DNA from: an uncultured Macromonas sp.
Lineage (GTDB): Bacteria; Pseudomonadota; Gammaproteobacteria; Burkholderiales; Burkholderiaceae
Reading direction: 5' to 3'
Assembly (NCBI GenBank): GCA_946481585.1
Contig: CAMLOF010000098.1
Span: 1 to 9,489, forward strand
Length of the DNA: 9,489 bases
Shown: in pieces, positions 1 to 9,489 of the stretch
Numbering within the stretch: position 1 is the stretch's first letter
How the letters are laid out: each line of letters starts with the position of its first letter
The notes under the pieces: model-generated
What the model was told of the DNA's origin: nothing
What the model saw: the letters and a program-made list of their open reading frames with translations, nothing else
Databases searched by the model: none
Made by a program: the position numbers and the translations under genes

Positions 1-817
1 CGCCCAGGCTGTGGCTGAGCGAGTGCACGCAGCCCAGCCCTTTCTGGAAGGCCATGGCACCCTGCATGCTCGCGCTCATCATGTGCAGGCGGGCCTCGCG
101 GTCCTGTCCGTTGCGGGTGGCCCGTTCGATGTGGGCCCACCCGCGCTCCAGACCGTCCAGTGCGATGCCGTCTGCTGGCGGGTTGAAGGCTGCGGCCATG
201 AAGGTTTCCATGCAGTGGGCAATGGCATCCATGCCTGTGGCCGCCGTCAGCATGGGCGGCAGGCCCAGTGTGAGTTCGGGGTCGAGCAGGGCGGTCTTGG
301 GCACCAGGTGCCAGCTGTGGAAGCCCAGCTTGCGCCCATCGTCCACGATGATGATGGCGCCGCGCGCCACTTCACTGCCGGTTCCTGCCGTGGTGGGAAT
401 GGCGATCAGCGGGGGCACGCTGTCGGTGATGCGCGGCGAGCCGCCTTCGATGGTGGCGTAGGTCTTGAGCGGCCCTTCGTGCGCCACGGCAATGGCCACG
501 CCCTTGGCGCAGTCTATGCTGCTACCACCGCCCAGCGCGATCAGGCCGTCGCAACCCTGTGCCTGGTAGATGGCTGCTGCGGCACGCACGGCGGCCTCGG
601 TCGGGTTGGATGGCGTCTGGTCGAACACGGCATGGGGCAGGGGGCTGCCGCCCTGGGCCAATGCCGTGGTGGCCCGCTCCAGCAGGCCAGCGGCCTTGAC
701 GCCCACGTCGGTCACGATGAGCGGCTTGCTCATGCCGGTGCGCTCGCATTCGCCGCGCAGCAGGGCAATGGCGCCAAAGTCGATCTGGATGTTGGTGACG
801 TAAAGAATCTGCGACAC
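1..817 (-). CDS. Iron-containing alcohol dehydrogenase (partial, C-terminus off left edge)
   Basis: NAD(P)-dependent oxidoreductase of the group III (Fe-ADH) family, expected to interconvert an alcohol and an aldehyde or ketone in the cytoplasm. The first 272 residues of a family that is usually about 380 are present. Visible motifs are the glycine-rich nucleotide-binding turn ALGGGSSIDCAK (94-105), the IPTTAGTGSE loop (140-149), and the metal-binding TGMDAIAH segment with D197 and H201. The HSLSHSLG segment supplies H265 as a third ligand; by analogy with FucO the fourth His lies beyond the window. I chose the GTG at 817 because AGGAGA (828-823) sits 5 nt upstream and no in-frame ATG has comparable support. 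It is divergent from the hydrolase at 927. The exact substrate cannot be read from sequence; general alcohol, hydroxy-acid or maleylacetate reductase-like roles are possible. The family call is secure, the substrate unknown. Confidence 0.9.
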   Translation of the reverse strand, partial: MSQILYVTNIQIDFGAIALLRGECERTGMSKPLIVTDVGVKAAGLLERATTALAQGGSPLPHAVFDQTPSNPTEAAVRAAAAIYQAQGCDGLIALGGGSSIDCAKGVAIAVAHEGPLKTYATIEGGSPRITDSVPPLIAIPTTAGTGSEVARGAIIIVDDGRKLGFHSWHLVPKTALLDPELTLGLPPMLTAATGMDAIAHCMETFMAAAFNPPADGIALDGLERGWAHIERATRNGQDREARLHMMSASMQGAMAFQKGLGCVHSLSHSLG

Positions 818-858
818 GTTTGTCTCCTGTGGTTTTGTGGGGTCCGTCGTGTTCGCAC

Positions 859-894
859 AATATAAGAGTTGCCATGCTCAAAATGGTGTGAGCA
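859..894. promoter_or_regulatory. Dyad operator candidate and possible -10 box in the divergent gap
   Basis: The 109-bp gap between the divergent dehydrogenase and hydrolase genes contains a perfect inverted repeat, TGCTCA (875-880), 8 nt, TGAGCA (889-894), 20 bp in total. Just beside it the minus strand reads TATATT (864-859), a plausible -10 box for the dehydrogenase with no good -35 at normal spacing, as expected for an activator-dependent promoter. If that -10 is used, the dyad centre falls around -33. The length and symmetry suit a dimeric regulator; the LuxR-type protein encoded at 1944 is the nearest candidate (inference). The dyad is seen directly; its function is not proven. Confidence 0.45.
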
Positions 895-926
895 AGGCGA
901 CAGCACGATTGGCGACAATGCGGGGC

Positions 927-1907
927 ATGAATTCACACGTGAACCCCCGCGCGCTGTTGACGACGCAGATGCGCGGTGTCATTGACCGCATGGCTCGCGC
1001 TGGCCGCCCGCCGATGCATTGCCTGTCTCCCGAGCAGGCCAAGGCCTTTTACGAGGCAGGCGCTGGCGTGCTGGACATACCGCCTCACAAGATGGCGCGC
1101 GTCGAAGCGCTGAGCATTCCCACCCGCGACGGCGCCCGGTTGCATGCGGAACTGGTCGTACCCCACCAGACACACCAAGAGTCCGGCAGCGGGTGGCCGG
1201 TATTGCTGTACCTGCACGGTGGAGGCTTTACCGTGGGCAGCGTGGCCACGCACGCCAGCCTGTGCCGCCACCTCGCCCACCTGGCGCATTGCGCTGTGGT
1301 GTCGGTGGACTACCGGCTAGCACCCCAGCACAAGTTTCCCACGGCGGTGAACGACGCCTGGGACAGCCTGCAATGGTTGCATGCCCATGCCGCGTCTCTG
1401 GGGCTGGACGCGCAGCGCATCGCCGTGGGTGGTGACAGTGCCGGGGGCACCCTTTCCATCGTGTCGGCCTTGCAGGCGCGCGACGCAGGCTTGCCGCTGT
1501 GCCTGCAAATGCTGTTTTACCCAGGTTGTGCCGCCCATCAGGACACACCATCGCACCGCACCTTCGCGCACGGCTTTGTGCTGGAGGAACCCAGCATCAC
1601 GTGGTTTTTCAGTCAGTACCTCAACAGCCAGGCTGAGCGCGACGACTGGCGTTTCTCGCCGTTGAACGCGCCAGAGCTGGAAGGTGTCGCACCGGCGTGG
1701 ATCGGCCTGGCCGAGTGCGACCCGCTGGTGGATGAGGGGGTGATGTTCGCCGACCGCCTGCGCATGGCTGGCGTGCCGGTCGATATTGAGATTTACCGGG
1801 GTGTGACGCACGAATTCATCAAGATGGGCCGCGCCATCCCCGAGGCGCTGCAAGCCCATCAGGCTGCCGCCCGCGCCTTGCGGCAGGCATTTGACGGCGT
1901 CCAATGA
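927..1907 (+). CDS. HSL-family alpha/beta-hydrolase (esterase/arylamidase-like)
   Basis: Carboxyl-ester (possibly amide) hydrolase of the hormone-sensitive-lipase branch, 326 residues from the chosen start, typical for the family (about 300-340). It has the oxyanion-hole motif HGGG (97-100), the nucleophile elbow GDSAGG with Ser171, the acid in ECDPLVDEG (Asp265) and the catalytic His in GVTHEF (His295). No signal peptide is visible, so it should be cytoplasmic. The start is uncertain: ATG at 927 gives the usual short N-terminal cap helix, ATG at 918 adds three residues, and neither has a clear ribosome-binding site. The reading frame stays open upstream to about 837, but that stretch overlaps the dyad in the divergent gap and looks non-coding. 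The stop is 36 nt before the LuxR-type gene, so the two probably share a transcript. Members of this branch act on short-chain esters, aryl esters and some anilides; the natural substrate here is unknown. Confidence 0.9.
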   Translation: MNSHVNPRALLTTQMRGVIDRMARAGRPPMHCLSPEQAKAFYEAGAGVLDIPPHKMARVEALSIPTRDGARLHAELVVPHQTHQESGSGWPVLLYLHGGGFTVGSVATHASLCRHLAHLAHCAVVSVDYRLAPQHKFPTAVNDAWDSLQWLHAHAASLGLDAQRIAVGGDSAGGTLSIVSALQARDAGLPLCLQMLFYPGCAAHQDTPSHRTFAHGFVLEEPSITWFFSQYLNSQAERDDWRFSPLNAPELEGVAPAWIGLAECDPLVDEGVMFADRLRMAGVPVDIEIYRGVTHEFIKMGRAIPEALQAHQAAARALRQAFDGVQ

Positions 1908-1929
1908 CCTTGGCGCCAGGCAGCAGGTG

Positions 1930-1955
1930 ATGAGCGGCAACCCATGAGCGGAAAC
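1930..1955 (+). repeat. Tandem near-duplication of the start region, with a 5-codon leader ORF
   Basis: The 12-mer ATGAGCGGCAAC (1930-1941) is repeated 14 nt later as ATGAGCGGAAAC (1944-1955), 11 of 12 bases identical. The second copy is the chosen start of the regulator. The first ATG opens a five-codon reading frame (MSGNP) in another frame, whose TGA (1945-1947) overlaps the regulator ATG as ATGA. This may be a small duplication that moved the start, or a coupling leader; it may also be chance. Confidence 0.3.
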
Positions 1956-2804
1956 TACTGGCGCCTGCCTGCGGCCACCCCGGCAGCCGCACACGTGCAA
2001 CTGCCGTTGGGGCAGGTCACGGCCTTGCTGGAAAAGCTGGGGCTATCAGGCCGCCATGCAGTGGCTGAGGACCTGCTGCGCATCGTTGGTGCGCACGTGC
2101 CCATGGCCCAGTGCACCATCTTCTCTTACGAAGGACAGTCACCGCCACGCCTGGTGGCCGTGGGTGACCGTTCACGTACGGCGCGCTTGCCCAGTATTGC
2201 GCAGGACTACGTGACGCGCTTTCACCGCTTGGACGGCAGCCGCCTCGTCATGGAGGCGGAACTGGAACAGGCCCGCCGCGCCAGCGCCGCGCACCCTCAC
2301 ATCCTGCTGCACCGGCAGCGCCCGCAGGACATTACCCACCCCGAATACCGCGAGGTCTGCTACGAATGGCCGCGCGTGGCCGAGCGGTTGGCCATTTTGG
2401 CGCTATACGACGGCTGGCGTTGGCTGTCGGTGAACTTTTACCGAGGCGTGGAGCACGGCCCGCTGGACGATGCTGCTCTGCGCACGATGGAAGCCCTGGC
2501 GCCGCTCGTCATGCACGCGGTGCGCCTGCACTACGCTGGGCAGCTGTTCGATGCCGATCTGGCGGAGTGGCTGCTGGCCCGCCTGCACCGGCGCTACCCG
2601 GCCCTGACCAAACGCGACCTGGATGTGCTGCGCGCCTTGCTGGCAGGCCTGGAGACGGAAGCGCTGGCACAGCGGCTGGGCTTGGAGCTGTCCAGCGCAC
2701 GCACCTACCTCAAGCGCGTGTACCGCAAGCTGGGCATTGGCAGCCAGCGGGAGTTGCTGGGCCTGCTGGTGCAGCCCGACGGTGTAGAGCCCCCACCGGC
2801 CTGA
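1944..2804 (+). CDS. LuxR-type transcriptional regulator with GAF-like N-terminal domain
   Basis: DNA-binding regulator of 286 residues. The C-terminal 218-275 fits the LuxR/GerE helix-turn-helix: LTKRDLDVLRALLAGL, then LAQRLGLELSSARTYLKRVYRKLGI and SQREL. The N-terminal 20-195 has no receiver-domain Asp signature and looks like a GAF/PAS-like sensing domain, so it is more likely a ligand-responsive regulator than a two-component response regulator. It does not show the residue pattern I would expect of an acyl-homoserine-lactone receptor. It lies 36 nt downstream of the hydrolase on the same strand and ends 17 nt from the convergent ferredoxin gene. Likely targets are the hydrolase/dehydrogenase divergent promoter or the Rieske operon (inference). 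The start at 1944 lacks a strong ribosome-binding site and may be translated by coupling. The HTH call is firm; the sensed ligand is unknown. Confidence 0.85.
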   Translation: MSGNYWRLPAATPAAAHVQLPLGQVTALLEKLGLSGRHAVAEDLLRIVGAHVPMAQCTIFSYEGQSPPRLVAVGDRSRTARLPSIAQDYVTRFHRLDGSRLVMEAELEQARRASAAHPHILLHRQRPQDITHPEYREVCYEWPRVAERLAILALYDGWRWLSVNFYRGVEHGPLDDAALRTMEALAPLVMHAVRLHYAGQLFDADLAEWLLARLHRRYPALTKRDLDVLRALLAGLETEALAQRLGLELSSARTYLKRVYRKLGIGSQRELLGLLVQPDGVEPPPA

Positions 2805-2821
2805 AGCGCGGGGAAAGCCTC

Positions 2822-3151
2822 TCAGTACTGGCTCTTGGGCAGGCGCACCACCATGCCGTCCAGCTCTTCCTTGAGCGGGATCTGGCAGCTCAGTCGGCTG
2901 CCTGGCTCGCGCGCACTGGCTGCGAAGTCGAGCATGGAATCCTCGTCGGCCACCATGTCGGGCAGGCGCGTGGTCCATGGTGCGTCGATCATCACGTGAC
3001 AGGTGGCGCAGGTGAGCAAGCCGCCGCAGTCGCCCTCAATGCCTTTGAGGTTGGCCTGGATGGCGGCCTGCATGAGTGAGATGCCGGTGGGCGCAGTGAT
3101 GTCGGTCGCTAGGCCGTCGGCGTGGACGAAATGGATGCGGATGTCGGGCAT
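2822..3151 (-). CDS. [2Fe-2S] ferredoxin, putidaredoxin/adrenodoxin type
   Basis: Small cytoplasmic electron carrier of 109 residues, the normal size for vertebrate/bacterial-type [2Fe-2S] ferredoxins. The cluster cysteines are Cys42, Cys48, Cys51 and Cys89, in the pattern C-x5-C-x2-C-x37-C (DCGGLLTCATC, then LSCQI). It is the third gene of the minus-strand operon: its ATG lies only 6 nt after the stop of the glutamine-synthetase-like gene, and it has no clear ribosome-binding site of its own, so translational coupling is likely. Its position with a Rieske oxygenase suggests it feeds electrons to that enzyme, as the putidaredoxin-type ferredoxin DdmB does for dicamba O-demethylase. No ferredoxin reductase is encoded in the window, so one must come from elsewhere. 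Confidence 0.93.
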   Translation of the reverse strand: MPDIRIHFVHADGLATDITAPTGISLMQAAIQANLKGIEGDCGGLLTCATCHVMIDAPWTTRLPDMVADEDSMLDFAASAREPGSRLSCQIPLKEELDGMVVRLPKSQY

Positions 3152-3157
3152 GGTGGT

Positions 3158-4711
3158 TCAGAAAACAGAGAAGTATTCGCGGCGGTCCCAGTCCATTCTC
3201 GCCTGTGCCTGGGCCGACGCATCGCTGGCGGCCAGGGCTTGGTCAAGTCGCGCCAGTTCGGCGCGCTTGACGCGCACCATGTGGTTGACTATCGCATCAC
3301 CCAGGTCCTCGCGCAGCCATTCAGCGCCGGACAGGGCCGACAGGGCTTCGTCCAGGCTGGCGGGCAGGCGTGTGGCGTGGTCTTCGGCGTAAGGGGTGTC
3401 AGCAGCGCGCCCGGGGTGCGGGCGCTGGTCCAGGCCGCGCGCGCCCGCATGTACTTGCGATGCGAGGTAGAGGTAGGGGTTGGCCAGCGGTTCGCCCGCA
3501 CGGTTTTCAATGCGCGTGGCGGCGTCACCAGGCCCTTGGCCGATGACCCGCAGCATGGCGCCCCGGTTGTCGCGGCCCCAGAGCACGTGCTGCGGCGCCA
3601 TCACGCTGCCCTGGTAGCGGGCGTAGCCGTTGGCGGTGGGGCTGGCGAAGGCCGCCATGTCGCGGGCGTGGGCCAGCAGCCCGCCCAGGTAATGCACGCC
3701 GGTGGCTGACAGCAGGCTGGCGGCTTCCATCGGGTCGGGGTGGGGCGCTTCGGGAATCAACAGGTTGGTGCCGGTGTTCAAGTCCACCAGCGACTGGTGC
3801 AGGTGCCAGCCGCTGCTGATGACCTGCGGGAACGGCGGGCGGCACATGAAGGTGGCGTGGTATCCCGCACGGTGCAGCGCCTGCTTCACTGCAGATCGGA
3901 ACAGCACCATATGGTCGGCAGAAGTGAGCGCGTCTGTGGGGCCAAAGACGGCTTCCACCTGGCTGGGGCCCAGCTCGATTTCCAGCGAGGTCAAGGGCAA
4001 GTCGAGCGCCTGCGCTGTGCGCTGCACAATGCGCAGCGCGGGTTCCGCCATGTCAAACCACTGCTCTGTCAGGTGGTTGAAGCCGGGGTGCAGCAAACGA
4101 ACGGCGGGCGCCTCACCGGGCCAGCTGGCGTCTTGCGGCAGGGGCAGTTCGCCTTCGCGGCGGTAGATGTGGAACTCCACTTCCAGCCCGGTACGTAGGC
4201 CCATGCCACGTTCCAACAGGCGTTGCAGCGCGCGCCGGGCCTGGTGGCGCGGGTCCAGCTCTATGGGTTGACCGTTCGTGAAGTGCGCTTGGCACAGCAC
4301 CCAGCCGGTGCTTTCCGCCCAGGGCAGGACCTTGAAGGTGGTGGGGTCAGGCACCATTACCACGTCGGCCGCGCCGCCAAAGCCTTCCGGCGCCTCGCCG
4401 TTGTTCTGGAACACGGGGTATGCCGTGCGGTGCGAACTGTCCTTCAGCAGCAGCGTTCCCACCATGTTCACGCCGTTGCGCAGGGCAGAAATGGCTGCGC
4501 TGGCCACCAGTGTCTTGCCGCGCAGTACGCCGTGCAGATCGGCCCAGGCGAAGCGCACCAACTCCAAACCTTCCTCGCGGATACGGCGCTCCACCTCGCC
4601 GCACGCGGCGTGCTGTGTGTCGCTCCAGAGCCGGTGGCGGTCAACGAAACGCTGGCCGCTGTTGCTGGCGGTGGTGGGGCTCGTGTTCGGGTGTCGCATG
4701 GGCTCAGGCAT
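3158..4711 (-). CDS. Glutamine-synthetase-like gamma-glutamyl ligase
   Basis: ATP-dependent ligase of the glutamine synthetase superfamily, 517 residues from ATG 4711. Landmarks are WADLHGVLRGK (beta-grasp, about 57-66), EVEF with Glu177 and Glu179 (metal site), IELGPSQVE with Glu246 and Glu253, SGWHLHQSL with His303, WGRDNRGAMLR with Arg383 and Arg388, and RIENR with Glu402. The C-terminal region reads RLPASLDEAL in place of the NLYDLP adenylylation site of housekeeping GlnA, as in PuuA and gamma-glutamylanilide-synthase-like members. With a Rieske oxygenase upstream and a ferredoxin downstream, the likely role is glutamylation of an amine in a degradative pathway, not ammonia assimilation (inference). 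ATG 4711 overlaps the oxygenase stop by 8 bp (ATGCCTGA); ATG 4699, 4 nt after that stop, is equally possible. The open frame continues upstream to 4894 but is antisense-free overlap with the oxygenase and not homologous-looking. Confidence 0.88.
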   Translation of the reverse strand: MPEPMRHPNTSPTTASNSGQRFVDRHRLWSDTQHAACGEVERRIREEGLELVRFAWADLHGVLRGKTLVASAAISALRNGVNMVGTLLLKDSSHRTAYPVFQNNGEAPEGFGGAADVVMVPDPTTFKVLPWAESTGWVLCQAHFTNGQPIELDPRHQARRALQRLLERGMGLRTGLEVEFHIYRREGELPLPQDASWPGEAPAVRLLHPGFNHLTEQWFDMAEPALRIVQRTAQALDLPLTSLEIELGPSQVEAVFGPTDALTSADHMVLFRSAVKQALHRAGYHATFMCRPPFPQVISSGWHLHQSLVDLNTGTNLLIPEAPHPDPMEAASLLSATGVHYLGGLLAHARDMAAFASPTANGYARYQGSVMAPQHVLWGRDNRGAMLRVIGQGPGDAATRIENRAGEPLANPYLYLASQVHAGARGLDQRPHPGRAADTPYAEDHATRLPASLDEALSALSGAEWLREDLGDAIVNHMVRVKRAELARLDQALAASDASAQAQARMDWDRREYFSVF

Positions 4712-6056
4712 TGGCGGGTTCGCTGGCTTGGCGCCACGGCGCGCCGTCGCGCTTGGTGGCGTCCACCTTGCGCCAGTGCGCGTCCCATGCATCGGCTGGG
4801 GCAATGCTGTCCACGGTGGAGGGGCCTTGCATGGCCGCGGCCTGCTCGGGCGCCAGAACCATGGGCGGTGTGCCGCCTGCCTGCACCGTTTCAATCGCCT
4901 TGATCAGCAAGCGGCGGTAGGCCATGATGCCTTTGTCAGACGTGCCCAGGTGCTCGCGTGTGCGGTCCTGGATGGGGCCGGGCGACTCGACCGCCCACTG
5001 GTCGTGCACGTTGATGTCCTGACCCATGCCGGTGTAGGTTTCGGAGAGTTGTTCGTCCGCGTTGAAACCCCAGTCGTTGTGGCGGCCGACGCGGGGTTTG
5101 TAGTCGGGCAGGGTGTAGAGCGCCAGGCGCTGCTCGCGCATCTGCGCTTTGTTCAAAGGTTCGCGGAACCCTGTGAAGATGGCATACCAGTAGCAGTGCG
5201 TGTCGTCCACGGGCACGTGCCATTGGGTGATGGTGATGTCAGCCGACAAGGGGATGACGAAGGCTTGCGGGAATACCTGGTTGGTAACGCGCACGTGGGT
5301 GAGTTGCTCGTTCAGGTGGCGCAGAGCAATGAGCTGCAGGCCGTGGTCGGCGGGGTTCACGTGGATCTCGGGACGGCCGAACTCGCGCAACACCTTGGTC
5401 ATGGGCCAGTCAGACCCGGCTGAAGCGCCGCGGAACTGCTTGCCGTAGCTGGTCTCCAGCGACTCGTCCTGAAAGTAGCGGTGCAGGTAAGACGCGTGTG
5501 CGGGGTCGATGCCCACCTCCAGCGCCTGCAGCCAGTTGCAGTCCAGCCAGCCCTTGAAGGCGAATGTGTGGGTGTTGGGGGCGGTGAAGCAGTCGAAAGC
5601 CGGAAAGGGTGCGGGCTCCTGGCTTTCCGGGCCCATCCAGGCAAATAGGATGCCGCTTTTCTCCACCACCGGGTAGCTGCGCTGGCGCACGCGCTGGCAC
5701 AGCGTGCTGCCTTCCGGCTCTGCCGGAGTTTCGGTGCAGTGGCCGTGGGCGTTGAACTTCCAGCCATGGAAGGGGCAACGCACGCCGTCGCCCTCGTGGC
5801 GGCCAAAGGCCAGGTCTGCGCCACGGTGGGGGCAGTCACGGTCCAGCAGGCCCCAGCGGCCCTGGTCGTCCTTGAACAGCACCAGGTCCTGGCCCAGCAG
5901 GCGAACTGCCTTCATGGGGCGTTTGGCCATGCGCGGGTCAAGCGCCGGGTCGAACTCGTCAACCAATGCCACGGGCTGCCAGTAGTGCCGCAGCAGCTGG
6001 CCGCCAGGGGTGCCTGCGCCCACGCGGGTGATGAGTTCGTTCTGTTCAGCCTTCAT
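4704..6056 (-). CDS. Rieske non-haem iron oxygenase, phthalate-dioxygenase-type alpha subunit
   Basis: Terminal oxygenase of an aromatic-ring hydroxylating or O/N-demethylating system, 450 residues; phthalate 4,5-dioxygenase-type proteins are about 440. The Rieske cluster ligands are Cys75 and His77 (CPHRGADL) and Cys94 and His97 (CPFHGW). The catalytic domain has the family motif CNWLQALEVGIDPAHASYLH, giving His187 and His192 as mononuclear-iron ligands and Asp184 as the likely bridging acid between subunits. The protein should form an alpha-only trimer, and no beta subunit is encoded here. The start is ATG 6056, with AGGA 6 nt upstream; a TTG at 6071 would add five residues without benefit. 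It is first in the operon with the ligase and the ferredoxin, and divergent from the GntR/FCD gene. The substrate is unresolved: ring dioxygenation, monooxygenation or demethylation are all known in this family. Confidence 0.93.
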   Translation of the reverse strand: MKAEQNELITRVGAGTPGGQLLRHYWQPVALVDEFDPALDPRMAKRPMKAVRLLGQDLVLFKDDQGRWGLLDRDCPHRGADLAFGRHEGDGVRCPFHGWKFNAHGHCTETPAEPEGSTLCQRVRQRSYPVVEKSGILFAWMGPESQEPAPFPAFDCFTAPNTHTFAFKGWLDCNWLQALEVGIDPAHASYLHRYFQDESLETSYGKQFRGASAGSDWPMTKVLREFGRPEIHVNPADHGLQLIALRHLNEQLTHVRVTNQVFPQAFVIPLSADITITQWHVPVDDTHCYWYAIFTGFREPLNKAQMREQRLALYTLPDYKPRVGRHNDWGFNADEQLSETYTGMGQDINVHDQWAVESPGPIQDRTREHLGTSDKGIMAYRRLLIKAIETVQAGGTPPMVLAPEQAAAMQGPSTVDSIAPADAWDAHWRKVDATKRDGAPWRQASEPANA

Positions 6057-6095
6057 GTCTCGTCCTGCCAAATAGGATTGTGTACCAAAAAAGTA

Positions 6096-6111
6096 AAACG
6101 GTATACCGTTT
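6096..6111. promoter_or_regulatory. 16-bp perfect palindrome, probable GntR/FCD operator
   Basis: AAACGGTATACCGTTT is a perfect palindrome centred between 6103 and 6104, in the 81-bp gap between the divergent oxygenase and GntR genes. Its core GGTATACC resembles the GTATAC-type sites known for FadR-subfamily GntR proteins. Related half-site-like words, TGTACC (6081-6086) and TGTACA (6123-6128), lie on either side. The flanks are A/T-rich compared with the rest of the window. Binding by the adjacent regulator, controlling both itself and the oxygenase operon, is the simplest reading (inference). Confidence 0.7.
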
Positions 6112-6137
6112 CAAAAATCCAGTGTACAGTACCCGCC

Positions 6138-6860
6138 ATGAGCGTGCAAGAAACCGTTTTGATGCAACTGCGCGACCGCATCCTGCGGGGCGATTTCGCG
6201 CCCGGCCAGCGCTTGGCCGAGCAACAACTGGCTGAACAACTGGGTGCCTCGCGCACTCCCGTGCGCGCCGCGCTGGCCACGCTGGAGCAGGAGGGGCTGG
6301 TCGAGTCCAACGACACCGGCGGCTACTTGGTACGGCAGTACACCGCGCAGGAAGTGAGCGACGCCATTGCCGTGCGCGGCCATCTGGAAGGCATGGCCGC
6401 GCGCCTGGTTGCCGAGCACGGCGTGCCTCGCCAGTTGCAGGCCCAACTGCAGGCCTGCCTGGATGAAGGCGACCAGGTGCTGGCCGCCAACCCGCTCACG
6501 CTGGAAAGCTACGCAGCGTACGCAGACATGAACGACCGCTTCCACGCCTTCATTCTGGAAGCCAGCGGCAACCGCGCGCTGCAAAGGGCCGTGGCCATGA
6601 ACGACAAGCTGCCCTTCGCGCCCGCGTCTGCCATGCTGCCCATGCAGGGCACCCTGGCGCTGGACCGTGACTGGATGCTCTACGCACACCGCCAGCACCA
6701 CATGCTTTTTGACGCGCTACGCGCAGGGCAGGGCGCGCGCGCTCAGGCCCTGGCGGTGGAGCACACCGAAGTAGCGCAGATGAACATGCGCATGGCCCTG
6801 GAGCGTCGCACCGAGGCCGAACAGGTGCTGCCCGCCATACGGCTCGTCGTGGGGCGTTGA
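6138..6860 (+). CDS. GntR-family (FadR/FCD subfamily) transcriptional regulator
   Basis: Dimeric repressor-type regulator of 240 residues. Residues 1-66 form the winged helix-turn-helix, with the typical helix pair LAEQLGASRTPVRAALATLEQEGLV (31-55) followed by the wing ending GGYLVR. Residues 72-225 fit the all-helical FCD ligand domain: Arg80 in VRGHLEG, NDRFHAF with His136, HRQHHMLFDALRAG with His187, and His209, the three His being candidate metal ligands as in TM0439-like FCD proteins. FCD proteins usually sense small carboxylic acids, fitting control of a catabolic operon. ATG 6138 is the first start giving the canonical N-terminus; the frame remains open far upstream, but that part lies antisense to the oxygenase. 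There is no Shine-Dalgarno sequence. TACAGT (6125-6130) lies at a distance that would give a leaderless or nearly leaderless message. It is divergent from the oxygenase across the palindrome at 6096. Confidence 0.92.
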   Translation: MSVQETVLMQLRDRILRGDFAPGQRLAEQQLAEQLGASRTPVRAALATLEQEGLVESNDTGGYLVRQYTAQEVSDAIAVRGHLEGMAARLVAEHGVPRQLQAQLQACLDEGDQVLAANPLTLESYAAYADMNDRFHAFILEASGNRALQRAVAMNDKLPFAPASAMLPMQGTLALDRDWMLYAHRQHHMLFDALRAGQGARAQALAVEHTEVAQMNMRMALERRTEAEQVLPAIRLVVGR

Positions 6861-6914
6861 GCGGGGTAACCGCGTGCCGCCTGCATGTTGTCTGCGGGCC
6901 TTAAACTTTCGACC

Positions 6915-7592
6915 ATGAAGCTCTACAACTACTTCCGTTCGGGCACGTCCTTCCGCGTGCGCATCGCACTCAACCTCAAGGGTTTGCCTTACGAGTACGT
7001 GTCGGTGCATCTGGCCAAGGGCGAACACCGGCAGGACGCCTACCGCGCCGTCAGCCCCGACACGCTGGTGCCCGTGCTCGACCTGCAAGGCGACCCCGAA
7101 CAGGCGATGCTGAGTCAGTCCATGGCCATCATCGAATACCTGGACGAGACCCACCCCGAACCTGCGCTGCTGCCCGCCGATGCGCTGGGGCGTGCCCGTG
7201 TTCGCGCGCTGGCACAGACCGTGGCCTGCGAGATCCATCCCATCAACAACCTGCGCATCCTCAAATACCTGGGGGGAACGCTGGGCCTGAGCGAACAGCA
7301 GCGTGCCGACTGGTACAACCACTGGGTGTTGGAAGGGCTGCAGTCCTACGAGCGCCGCCTGCAGGACCTCCAGAAAGAGCGTGCCGCCGCAGGCCTGCCA
7401 CCCTCGGTGTACTCCTATGGCAGCACACCCACCCTGGCCGACTGCTGCCTGGTGCCGCAGGTCATCAATGGCCAGCGCTTTGGCTTGAAGTACGAAGGCC
7501 TGCCGTTGACCATGGCTGTCTTCGACGCCTGCATGAAGCTCGACGCCTTCCAGAAGGCGCATCCGCGCAACTGCCCTGACTTCGAGGCCTGA
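6915..7592 (+). CDS. maiA: Zeta-like GST isomerase: maleylacetoacetate or maleylpyruvate isomerase
   Basis: Glutathione-dependent cis-trans isomerase of 225 residues that acts after aromatic ring cleavage, in either the homogentisate (maleylacetoacetate) or the gentisate (maleylpyruvate) route. The N-terminal thioredoxin-like domain has RSGTSFRVRIAL (8-19), the counterpart of the zeta-class SSCSWRVRIAL motif, then LVPVL (51-55) and QSMAIIEYL (68-76) for glutathione binding. ACEIHPINNLRIL (104-116) is the conserved start of the helical domain. The RSGTS motif with Thr11 in place of Cys matches what I recall of the maleylpyruvate isomerase NagL, so the substrate assignment is open. The ATG at 6915 starts MKLYNYF; an upstream ATG at 6885 would add ten non-conserved residues. 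No ribosome-binding site is obvious. pgeF starts 4 nt after its stop. Confidence 0.88.
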   Translation: MKLYNYFRSGTSFRVRIALNLKGLPYEYVSVHLAKGEHRQDAYRAVSPDTLVPVLDLQGDPEQAMLSQSMAIIEYLDETHPEPALLPADALGRARVRALAQTVACEIHPINNLRILKYLGGTLGLSEQQRADWYNHWVLEGLQSYERRLQDLQKERAAAGLPPSVYSYGSTPTLADCCLVPQVINGQRFGLKYEGLPLTMAVFDACMKLDAFQKAHPRNCPDFEA

Positions 7593-7596
7593 TCGC

Positions 7597-8385
7597 GTGC
7601 AGGACTTGATGGTTGCCGGCACGCATTGGCCGGCAGGCGTGCGCGCCGCGTTTACCACCCGCAACGGCGGTGTGTCGGCACCGCCATTCAGCAGCTGGAA
7701 CCTGGGTGACCACGTGGGCGATGCGCCCGACGCCGTTGCTGAAAACCGCAGGCGCCTGGCCGAGCGTTTGCATGCTCGGCCCGTGTTTTTGCAACAGGTG
7801 CATGGCTGCGATGTGTTGCCTGTGACCGTTGACGCAGCCGACCAGAGCGTGGCCGATGCCTGCTGGACGAGCGAGCCCGGCGTAGCCTGTACCGTGATGG
7901 TGGCTGACTGTCTTCCGCTGCTCTTCAGCACTGCGGACGGTACCAGCGTGGCAGCCGTTCACGCCGGGTGGCGCGGCCTGGTGGGCCAGGGCGGCATCGG
8001 TGTCATCGAATCGCTTTGCCGCGACTGGCCTGGCGCGCAGTTACCAGCACAGCGTGAGCATGTGCAGGTGTGGCTCGGGCCTTGCATCGGTCCAACAGCA
8101 TTCGAGGTGGGTGAAGACGTGCGCTCAGCTTTCATTGAGCACGACCCCAATGCCGCTCGCCACTTTCAGGCCCAAGGCAGCAGCGCTGGGCCGAAGTACC
8201 TGTGCAACCTGCCAGCCCTTGCGCGAGACAGGCTGGCCCGCCTGGGCATCACGGCCATCCATGGAAACGATGGTTCCGAGCCGTGGTGCACCGTGAGCAA
8301 CCCGTCACTTTTCTTCTCGCACCGGCGCGACGCTGCCCGCCTCGGCAGCACCGGGCGCATGGCCGCCTGCATCTGGCGAGTCTGA
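7597..8385 (+). CDS. pgeF: Peptidoglycan editing factor / laccase-domain protein PgeF (YfiH)
   Basis: Cytoplasmic YfiH/DUF152 protein of 262 residues. In E. coli it removes mis-incorporated L-Ser from the muropeptide precursor; relatives are multi-copper-like laccase-domain proteins or purine nucleoside phosphorylases. The metal/catalytic residues are present: His69 in QQVHG, Cys105 in ADCLPLL and His122 in HAGWRGL, followed by LGPCIGPTAFEVG. The C-terminus SHRRDAARLGSTGRMAA is the usual family ending. GTG 7597 aligns with the E. coli YfiH N-terminus (MSKLIV-like spacing). ATG 7609, with AGGA 4 nt upstream, is an alternative giving four residues fewer. It begins 4 nt after maiA and is probably co-transcribed with it. 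Its last 81 bp overlap the convergent small membrane gene. Confidence 0.93.
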   Translation: MQDLMVAGTHWPAGVRAAFTTRNGGVSAPPFSSWNLGDHVGDAPDAVAENRRRLAERLHARPVFLQQVHGCDVLPVTVDAADQSVADACWTSEPGVACTVMVADCLPLLFSTADGTSVAAVHAGWRGLVGQGGIGVIESLCRDWPGAQLPAQREHVQVWLGPCIGPTAFEVGEDVRSAFIEHDPNAARHFQAQGSSAGPKYLCNLPALARDRLARLGITAIHGNDGSEPWCTVSNPSLFFSHRRDAARLGSTGRMAACIWRV

Positions 8386-8583
8386 AGCTGCCGTCTCAGC
8401 CGCCTTCGCGGCATCGTACTTGCGCTGCTTGCGGCTGATGAAATAAAGAATCAGCGAGACTGGCACGAAACCGTAAAGAATCAGCGTCACAATGGCACCC
8501 AGGATGGTGCCGTTGGCGCTGAAGGCTTCTGCAAGGGCCATCAGCACGGCCACGTAAACCCAGCCCAAAACCACGAGATACAT
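8305..8583 (-). CDS. Small membrane protein, two predicted helices, unknown function
   Basis: Hypothetical protein of 92 residues that I do not recognise by name. Residues 1-20 (MYLVVLGWVYVAVLMALAEA) and about 27-49 (ILGAIVTLILYGFVPVSLILYF) are two hydrophobic segments that would span the inner membrane. They are followed by a positively charged SRKQRKYD stretch and a low-complexity Ala/Asp/Glu-rich tail, which by the positive-inside rule should be cytoplasmic. Membrane-protein composition and the clean hydrophobic pattern support it as a real gene. Its 3' 81 bp lie inside the convergent pgeF, and those codons encode only the low-complexity tail. It has no visible ribosome-binding site; an in-frame ATG at 8601 is closed by a stop after four codons. 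It is divergent from phaC. Confidence 0.75.
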   Translation of the reverse strand: MYLVVLGWVYVAVLMALAEAFSANGTILGAIVTLILYGFVPVSLILYFISRKQRKYDAAKAAETAASDSPDAGGHAPGAAEAGSVAPVREEK

Positions 8584-8720
8584 GTGTTAACGTTCGGTCA
8601 TGTGTGAGAGAAATGTTGGTCTCGTCAGCCGGCCGCAATGCAAAGGCCCCAAACTGACAACCAGACACCCATATTGTGGGCCCCTTGCCGGTTGCCCGCA
8701 TGAACTTTTCGGAGACAAAC
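8584..8720. other. Divergent intergenic region between small membrane gene and phaC
   Basis: The 137-bp gap must carry promoters for both flanking genes. I see CTGACA (8654-8659), one base from a consensus -35, but the only TATA-like word after it, TATTGT (8672-8677), is at a 12-bp spacing, too short for sigma-70. A small 4-bp-arm hairpin, CCCA-TATTG-TGGG (8668-8680), is also present. No convincing promoter, terminator or operator can be claimed. Confidence 0.4.
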
Positions 8721-9489
8721 ATGACCTCTGACAATCCCTGGCTGCAGTCCGCCCAGCAGTTCCAGCAGTCGGCCATGCAGCAATGGACGCAGATGCTGCA
8801 GTCCGCGCAGGCGTCCGGTACGCCCACCCCCAGTTTTGCCCTGCCCAGCGGCGCCAACCTCTCAGAGCTGTTCGGCAAGATCACCGGTCAGCCCGTGAAG
8901 TTCGACCCCGAAAAGTGGGTCGAGATCCAGCAGACCTACATGAAGGATCTGGCCGAGCTGTGGAACCAGGGCCTGCAGGTCAAGCCGCCGAAGGACCGCC
9001 GCTTTGCGTCGGAAGCCTGGAACAACAACCCCATGGCGGCGTTTTCGGCAGCGGCCTACCTGCTCAACGCCCGCACCCTCATGGCCATGGCCGAAGCGGT
9101 GGATGCCGACGCCAAGACCAAGGCCCGCGTCAGCTTTGCGGTGCAGCAGTGGATAGACGCCAGCGCACCCAGCAACTTCATGGCCTTCAACGCTGAAGCG
9201 CAGAAAAAGGCGCTGGAAACGCAGGGCGAAAGCATCTCCAAGGGCATACAGAACCTGCTCAACGACATGAAGCAGGGGCAGGTGTCCATGACGGACCAGA
9301 ACGCCTTTGAGGTGGGCCGCAACGTGGCCACCAGCGAAGGCCAGGTGGTGTTCGAAAACGAACTCTTCCAGTTGCTGGAATACAAGCCGCTCACCGCCAA
9401 GGTGTACGAGCGTCCGTTCCTGCTGGTGCCGCCTTGCATCAACAAGTTCTACATCCTCGACCTGCAGCCCGAGAACTCGCTCATCCGCT
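8721..9489 (+). CDS. phaC: Class I poly(3-hydroxyalkanoate) synthase PhaC (partial, C-terminus off right edge)
   Basis: Polymerises (R)-3-hydroxyacyl-CoA into PHA at the surface of storage granules. The first 256 codons of a protein usually near 580-600 residues are present. They hold the alpha-helical N-terminal domain (WLQSAQQFQQSAMQQW, then FNAEAQKKALETQGESISKG) that class I enzymes carry before the alpha/beta-hydrolase core. The core begins at about 240 with RPFLLVPPCINKFYILDLQP, the very conserved entry strand. The catalytic Cys (lipase-like box), Asp and His lie outside the window. ATG 8721 is chosen because GGAGA (8711-8715) sits 5 nt upstream; an in-frame ATG at 8700 has no such support. 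The class I call rests on the long N-terminal domain and VPPCINK motif; the phaA/phaB genes often found next to it would lie beyond the edge. Confidence 0.95.
   Translation, partial: MTSDNPWLQSAQQFQQSAMQQWTQMLQSAQASGTPTPSFALPSGANLSELFGKITGQPVKFDPEKWVEIQQTYMKDLAELWNQGLQVKPPKDRRFASEAWNNNPMAAFSAAAYLLNARTLMAMAEAVDADAKTKARVSFAVQQWIDASAPSNFMAFNAEAQKKALETQGESISKGIQNLLNDMKQGQVSMTDQNAFEVGRNVATSEGQVVFENELFQLLEYKPLTAKVYERPFLLVPPCINKFYILDLQPENSLIR

Follow-up and report, generated by a model that had tools for sequence, protein, structure and literature searches.

A sadABD-type oxygenase, ligase and ferredoxin operon in an uncultured Macromonas sp. and a candidate for its natural substrate

An operon of the sad kind

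Which compound is attacked by an enzyme set in which a glutamine synthetase (GS)-like ligase is encoded between a Rieske oxygenase and a ferredoxin? The question is raised by a 9,489-nt stretch of DNA from an uncultured Macromonas sp. (contig CAMLOF010000098.1, positions 1 to 9,489; hereafter the window), for which an earlier note, made from the sequence alone, had proposed an amine oxidation that depends on gamma-glutamylation. Protein domains and gene junctions confirm the three-gene operon that the note had placed at 2822-6056. On the minus strand, the oxygenase gene is followed by the ligase and the ferredoxin genes (Table 1); the oxygenase stop codon and the ligase ATG at 4711 share an 8-nt overlap (ATGCCTGA), a second ATG at 4699 offers an alternative ligase start, and ligase and ferredoxin are separated by 6 nt. 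As the note had stated for the first, the glutamyl hydrolase and the last of these, no beta subunit, gamma-glutamyl hydrolase or amidotransferase, or ferredoxin reductase was found among the 11 window proteins scanned for domains.

The note had considered a possibly undescribed pathway, but the same three kinds of genes are known as sadABD (PMC5632844, PMC3704786). In Hydrogenophaga intermedia PBC the sad operon comprises sadA (4-aminobenzenesulfonate 3,4-dioxygenase), sadB (glutamine synthetase) and a ferredoxin gene, the figure legend listing a protein as SadD and labelling the ferredoxin sadC; the paper describes the operon as fairly conserved across all reported Hydrogenophaga genomes (PMC5632844). 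Among the papers listed by searches of open-licence literature on 3-aminobenzoate, homarine and generic operons, none pointed to a further system with this gene set. The mab cluster of Comamonas was considered and dropped, as its path includes 5-aminosalicylate and the terms "glutamine synthetase" and "ferredoxin" are absent from the main text of its description.

Oxygenase matches at E 1e-100 or better occurred in 53 of 67 genomes from the genus of one Hydrogenophaga genome. When the 4-sulfomuconolactone hydrolase of Novosphingobium resinovorum SA1 was compared with these 67 genomes, its match in genome G021 (operon locus L134) reached 64% identity and that in the runner-up 41%; in G021 a maleylacetate reductase gene adjoins the hydrolase gene. 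The hydrolase picked out one genome as H. intermedia, which maleylacetate reductase as a query had failed to do. Because of the hydrolase match, and because 4-sulfocatechol genes were found only in H. intermedia according to PMC5632844, we infer that G021 is this species. Its proteins are 67% (oxygenase), 52% (ligase), 56% (ferredoxin) and 82% (the divergently encoded GntR regulator) identical to those of the window. In both, the GntR gene is followed by an isomerase gene, pgeF and phaC, with one extra gene in L134. The hosts differ, and the FAA-hydrolase and TRAP genes downstream of the operon in L134 are replaced in the window by a convergent LuxR-type gene. Judging from homology and the shared flank, the window operon belongs to the described sadABD kind. 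N. resinovorum SA1, a strain that degrades 4-aminobenzenesulfonate according to PMC5632844, has the oxygenase-ligase pair and the 4-sulfocatechol genes on one plasmid.

The window oxygenase shares its alpha-only family with phthalate-dioxygenase-type enzymes (7fhr, 7fjl, 9ina). It is 66.7% identical to the putative SadA of G021, 51.5-82.4% to the 25 family members compared and 32.9-36.8% to four other plasmid Rieske oxygenases; the three of these four with annotated neighbours have no GS-like gene annotated next to them. His77, His97, Asp184, His187, His192 and Asp352, presumably the cluster ligands, the iron ligands and the bridge between them, are retained in at least 25 of 26 oxygenase rows. 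Judged by identity, the oxygenase does fall into a family with one member of known substrate, SadA, whose substrate is xenobiotic; the earlier note had named placement with a single characterised substrate family as a finding that would speak against its reading.

Absence of the gene linkage in relatives would, by the note, also have counted against its reading; the linkage is kept. A contig scan with the ligase alone as query gave 591 confirmed loci, the best 80 of which mostly carry titles with Comamonadaceae genera. The oxygenase gene lies directly upstream of the ligase in 79 of these 80 (the sole miss starts at a contig end), the ferredoxin gene follows the ligase immediately in 69 (of the 11 exceptions, one is at a contig end), and a GntR gene is found upstream in 35. 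In a plasmid collection, 13 records with an oxygenase of at least 49.8% identity were among the 30 matches listed (the other 17 were at 32-35%, with 606 further plasmid records beyond these), and all 13 recurred among the 30 ligase matches listed. Among 11 plasmid relatives, 7 have an FAD reductase gene next to that of the ferredoxin. When 399 Burkholderiales genomes were screened with a Caballeronia family member as oxygenase query (E 1e-130), 23 matched, and the ligase adjoins the oxygenase in 21 of them; of the two exceptions, one is cut by a contig end and one (L154/L175) has no ligase in between. Some ligases in relatives' loci were missed by gene calling and were found by tblastn. The linkage of oxygenase and ligase exceeds chance.

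A ligase pocket possibly suited to an anionic amine

The best solved match of the window ligase is 8wwu (362 bits), which we take to be the 1-naphthylamine ligase NpaA1 of PMC11335346; the residue numbers given there fit 8wwu once shifted by a uniform 15. The amine pocket of NpaA1 is formed in part by a hydrophobic loop from V68 to M81 (PMC11335346), whereas the window ligase has Lys90 and Arg95 in this loop. We compared 145 distinct sad-type rows, many of them close kin, with three aniline-type rows. The position of NpaA1 Phe75 is occupied by Lys in all 145 and by F, F and V in the aniline-type rows; at that of Ser80 the sad-type rows have Arg (134), Lys (6), His (4) or Gln (1), against T, A and G. 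Both amine-binding Glu residues of NpaA1 are kept in the window ligase. Because Lys and Arg replace the pocket residues of the aniline ligases, they suggest that the ligase recognises a carboxylate or sulfonate, i.e., an amine with an anionic ring substituent.

We consider it probable that the operon encodes a deaminating dioxygenase system of the SadABD type whose substrate is a primary aromatic amine carrying an acidic group on the ring. The most likely such amine is 4-aminobenzoate, of which 4-aminobenzenesulfonate would be the xenobiotic analogue. The chemical reading of the earlier note is probably right: homology and gene context support both gamma-glutamylation-dependent amine oxidation and its suggestion of an aminated aromatic acid as the substrate class.

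Candidate natural substrates

The original sad substrate was thought to be a natural compound resembling 4-aminobenzenesulfonate (PMC5632844), and the natural substrate of sad-type oxygenases was left open in the accounts of both PMC3704786 (2013) and PMC5632844 (2017). Since some distant relatives of the operon adjoin genes for 4-hydroxylaminobenzoate lyase (PnbB), a nitroreductase or protocatechuate degradation, our best guess, at about even chances, is a natural route from 4-aminobenzoate to protocatechuate. Among 11 plasmid loci, PnbB is encoded near the operon in three (L084, L089, L091), a nitroreductase in three (L081, L084, L089) and an amidotransferase-type hydrolase in four (L081, L082, L084, L091). 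Among 20 wider contexts inspected, one, L169, has pcaB and fused pcaDC genes divergent from the operon, and in L088 pcaBDGH lies close to the ligase gene, itself ~6 kb from the oxygenase. PnbB was detected in 5 of the 23 oxygenase-bearing Burkholderiales genomes vs 16 of all 399 (hypergeometric P 0.0012, kinship uncorrected). LigA or PcaH exceeded the curated cut-off in 21 of the 23 vs 69 of the 376 others, LigA not being specific for protocatechuate, and an intradiol N-terminal domain was present in 14 of the 23, a figure given without a base rate.

A dihydropteroate synthase gene (folP) lies ~8 kb from the oxygenase-ligase pair on plasmid pSA3 of N. resinovorum SA1 (L128:768-1598); the substrate of this enzyme is 4-aminobenzoate. 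In titles and abstract openings of the open-licence literature searched, 4-aminobenzoate was not shown to be a sad substrate. Growth on 4-aminobenzoate is reported for Alcaligenes aquatilis QD168, for which the authors found no genes of the pathway (PMC6460240).

Several observations weigh against this assignment. Loci with PnbB or pca genes next to the operon are in the minority, and many operons of near relatives are adjoined by gentisate instead of protocatechuate genes. Of the 23 genomes with the oxygenase, 17 have a gentisate 1,2-dioxygenase match over the cut-off, vs 20 of a 141-genome sample of the order, which includes some of the 23. The window itself contains no ring-cleavage gene, hydrolase or reductase. 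The role ascribed to the pocket lysine is read from an alignment. On the alphaproteobacterial plasmids L086-L088 the ligase gene is near the oxygenase but not adjacent on the same strand, and in L154/L175 the oxygenase is followed by the ferredoxin with no ligase between them. Co-occurrence of ring-cleavage genes was set aside as a non-specific test of the substrate, gentisate dioxygenase being enriched too: it does not single out protocatechuate, because oxygenase-bearing genomes are rich in aromatic catabolism generally and kinship was uncorrected.

The same gentisate genes speak for another possibility, that the machinery acts on a different natural anionic aromatic amine, such as 3-aminobenzoate or an aminosalicylate, with a product that perhaps enters the gentisate route. 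The 83 grouped loci include 24 with a gentisate-dioxygenase family, 34 with an FAA-hydrolase family and 32 with a TRAP binding protein, and a representative gentisate dioxygenase and 3-hydroxybenzoate 6-monooxygenase from these loci pass curated cut-offs. However, attack of the dioxygenase on the amine-bearing carbon and the one next to it should, on chemical grounds, yield an ortho-diol, whereas gentisate is a para-diol; gentisate dioxygenase is missing next to the operon in the putative H. intermedia locus and in the Serpentinimonas loci, and other loci have the PnbB and pca neighbours described above. We regard a different amine as possible, though rather unlikely. The TRAP binding protein recurs beside the operon in gentisate and protocatechuate settings alike, which fits import of an organic anion. 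In three loci (L162:10406-11383, L164:10406-11383, L165:2436-3413) a gentisate-dioxygenase-like cupin gene is joined to the oxygenase gene; the cupin of L165 falls under the cut-offs of the gentisate and the 5-aminosalicylate dioxygenase models alike.

As for 4-aminobenzoate, a wider proposal would be that sad is a widespread freshwater and soil 4-aminobenzoate dioxygenase system, which converts this folate precursor to protocatechuate by glutamylation-primed dioxygenation, the conserved pocket lysine of the ligase reading the carboxylate. We put this forward tentatively, at slightly less than even chances. If true, a vitamin precursor would serve as a carbon and nitrogen source for Limnohabitans, Polaromonas, Hydrogenophaga and similar bacteria, and a pathway for a pollutant would have been recruited from one for 4-aminobenzoate, sad having been named after a dye chemical. 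While the system itself is already described, the sharper candidate for its natural substrate, a pocket residue to probe and a likely operator are new here, and context and pocket evidence turn the open question of the natural substrate into one specific, cheap test.

Proposed order of reactions and alternatives

From the genes, their order, homology and linkage, and from the conservation of residues and operator, we infer the chemistry in this organism, along with its substrate, the reductase and the sign of regulation. The ligase would use ATP to convert glutamate into gamma-glutamyl phosphate; the aryl amine, its acid group held by Lys90 and Arg95, would attack this intermediate to give an N-gamma-glutamyl arylamide. 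The oxygenase would then dihydroxylate the amine-bearing carbon and its ortho neighbour, with electrons supplied by the ferredoxin and a reductase encoded elsewhere, and departure of glutamine would leave a catechol-type acid, which would be protocatechuate in the case of 4-aminobenzoate. The sadB gene was reportedly essential in Escherichia coli, and the reductase gene, sadC, is said to lie elsewhere in the genome. The original sad paper dates from 2012 (Gan et al., Microbiology 158:1933). In Limnohabitans-type loci, a gamma-glutamylcyclotransferase-family gene (GGACT, PF06094; L040:8023-8415; family 160, present in 17 loci) is divergent beside the oxygenase and could possibly stand in for the gamma-glutamyl hydrolase absent from the operon.

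The reverse order, already offered as an alternative in the earlier note, would have the oxygenase act first and the GS-like protein remove or capture the amine afterwards. It is in line with the hypothesis, ascribed to the original sad work, that SadB removes the amine from hydroxylated 4-aminobenzenesulfonate (PMC3704786). We consider it improbable, since the homologous ligases AtdA1 (aniline) and NpaA1 (1-naphthylamine) are reported in their papers to glutamylate before oxidation, and since residues by which a synthetase binds ATP, metal and glutamate are retained in the window ligase (GlnA numbers E129, E131, E212, E220, H269, R321, R339, R344, E357, R359). GlnA D50, S53, E327 and Y397 are lost, being aligned with Q, G, M and A (the alignment is loose around D50). 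These are ammonia-site, flap and adenylylation residues, and by this comparison the ammonia-site and flap residues of a GS are missing from the ligase.

Glutamylation before oxidation is also how the tdn, atd, dca and npa systems work, in which a GS-like ligase primes an aromatic amine for a Rieske dioxygenase, and the ligase is 41-42% identical to three aniline-type ligases. It is nevertheless very unlikely that the operon serves an aniline-type pathway for uncharged aromatic amines, with beta subunit, amidotransferase and reductase encoded elsewhere. The known systems differ: next to the ligase they encode both an alpha and a beta subunit as well as an amidotransferase and a fused reductase, as seen in L180-L182, and the complement of beta subunit, amidotransferase and reductase is absent from the 11 window proteins; the oxygenase is just 20.2% identical to an aniline-type alpha subunit, and the pocket Lys and Arg set the ligase apart. 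In a 37-row ligase tree the window falls into a 13-row clade with the putative SadB (support 100/99), the three aniline-type ligases forming a separate clade (100/100). The tree does not establish a single clade for all sad-like ligases: four distant rows lie outside the fork with the aniline group, a position that has weak support (90/70) for one of the four. Homology and context bear out the note's view that the arrangement is distinct from the aniline alpha/beta systems.

That the ligase is an ordinary ammonia-assimilating or putrescine GS and a chance neighbour of the oxygenase is hardly credible, despite its Gln-synt_C domain and a putrescine-ligase model (NF045547) as top NCBIfam match, since all four NCBIfam matches lie far under their cut-offs (224 vs 650 bits for the top one), identity is 26% to E. 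coli GlnA and 22% to PuuA, ammonia-site and flap residues are lost, and the oxygenase gene is adjacent in 79/80 loci. Neither the residue comparison nor the tree groups the ligase with GlnA, the placement that the note had wished to see checked.

Regulation and flanking genes

The region between the divergent oxygenase and GntR genes contains a perfect palindrome, AAACGGTATACCGTTT. In loci that have a GntR homologue, the 12-base core of the palindrome recurs with at most a single mismatch in 41 of 54 distinct upstream regions; the count is 0 of 75 in loci without such a homologue and 0 of 54 in shuffles. The exact sequence GGTATACC occurs 40 times in the 2.49 Mb of all loci. Of 68 loci that have GntR, which include some fetched twice, 33 carry it upstream of the oxygenase; of 89 that lack GntR, none does. 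The palindrome is likely a GntR operator, through which GntR may control both divergent promoters.

Table 1. Features of the operon and its surroundings in the window.
Feature	Position	Strand	Basis
Rieske non-heme iron oxygenase, alpha-only, SadA-like, phthalate-dioxygenase type	4704..6056	minus	Rieske PF00355 and LigXa_C PF19301
GS-like gamma-glutamyl ligase, SadB-like	3158..4711	minus	Gln-synt_C PF00120, 230 bits; best solved match 8wwu
[2Fe-2S] ferredoxin, putidaredoxin type, SadD-like	2822..3151	minus	Fer2 PF00111; nearest solved chains 4ltu and putidaredoxin
Ligase pocket loop, residues 83-101 with Lys90 and Arg95 (numbered from ATG 4711)	4409..4465	minus	Gapless alignment to NpaA1 V68-F86
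GntR/FCD regulator, divergent from operon	6138..6860	plus	PF00392, PF07729; 82% identical in L134
Perfect 16-bp palindrome AAACGGTATACCGTTT, likely GntR operator	6096..6111		Between oxygenase and GntR starts
Maleylacetoacetate isomerase-type gene, syntenic context only	6885..7592	plus	TIGR01262, 251.8 bits (cut-off 171); same neighbour in L134 and L001

Beyond GntR, the plus strand carries the maleylacetoacetate isomerase-type gene, pgeF and phaC. The opposite flank of the operon holds the LuxR-type gene, an esterase gene and an iron-dependent alcohol dehydrogenase gene; the latter (2-817, minus strand) is cut by the window edge, and its score with a 4-hydroxybutyrate dehydrogenase model, 491.5, falls short of the 500-bit cut-off. 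In a Ramlibacter metagenome-assembled genome (L071:11903-18027) and on a Nitratireductor plasmid (L086:16996-25314), the operon lies near genes that cluster with an FAD-dependent oxidoreductase, a cytosine deaminase and a creatininase (annotations from L086). The former locus also has, near the operon, a gene that clusters with a hydantoinase/oxoprolinase of L087.

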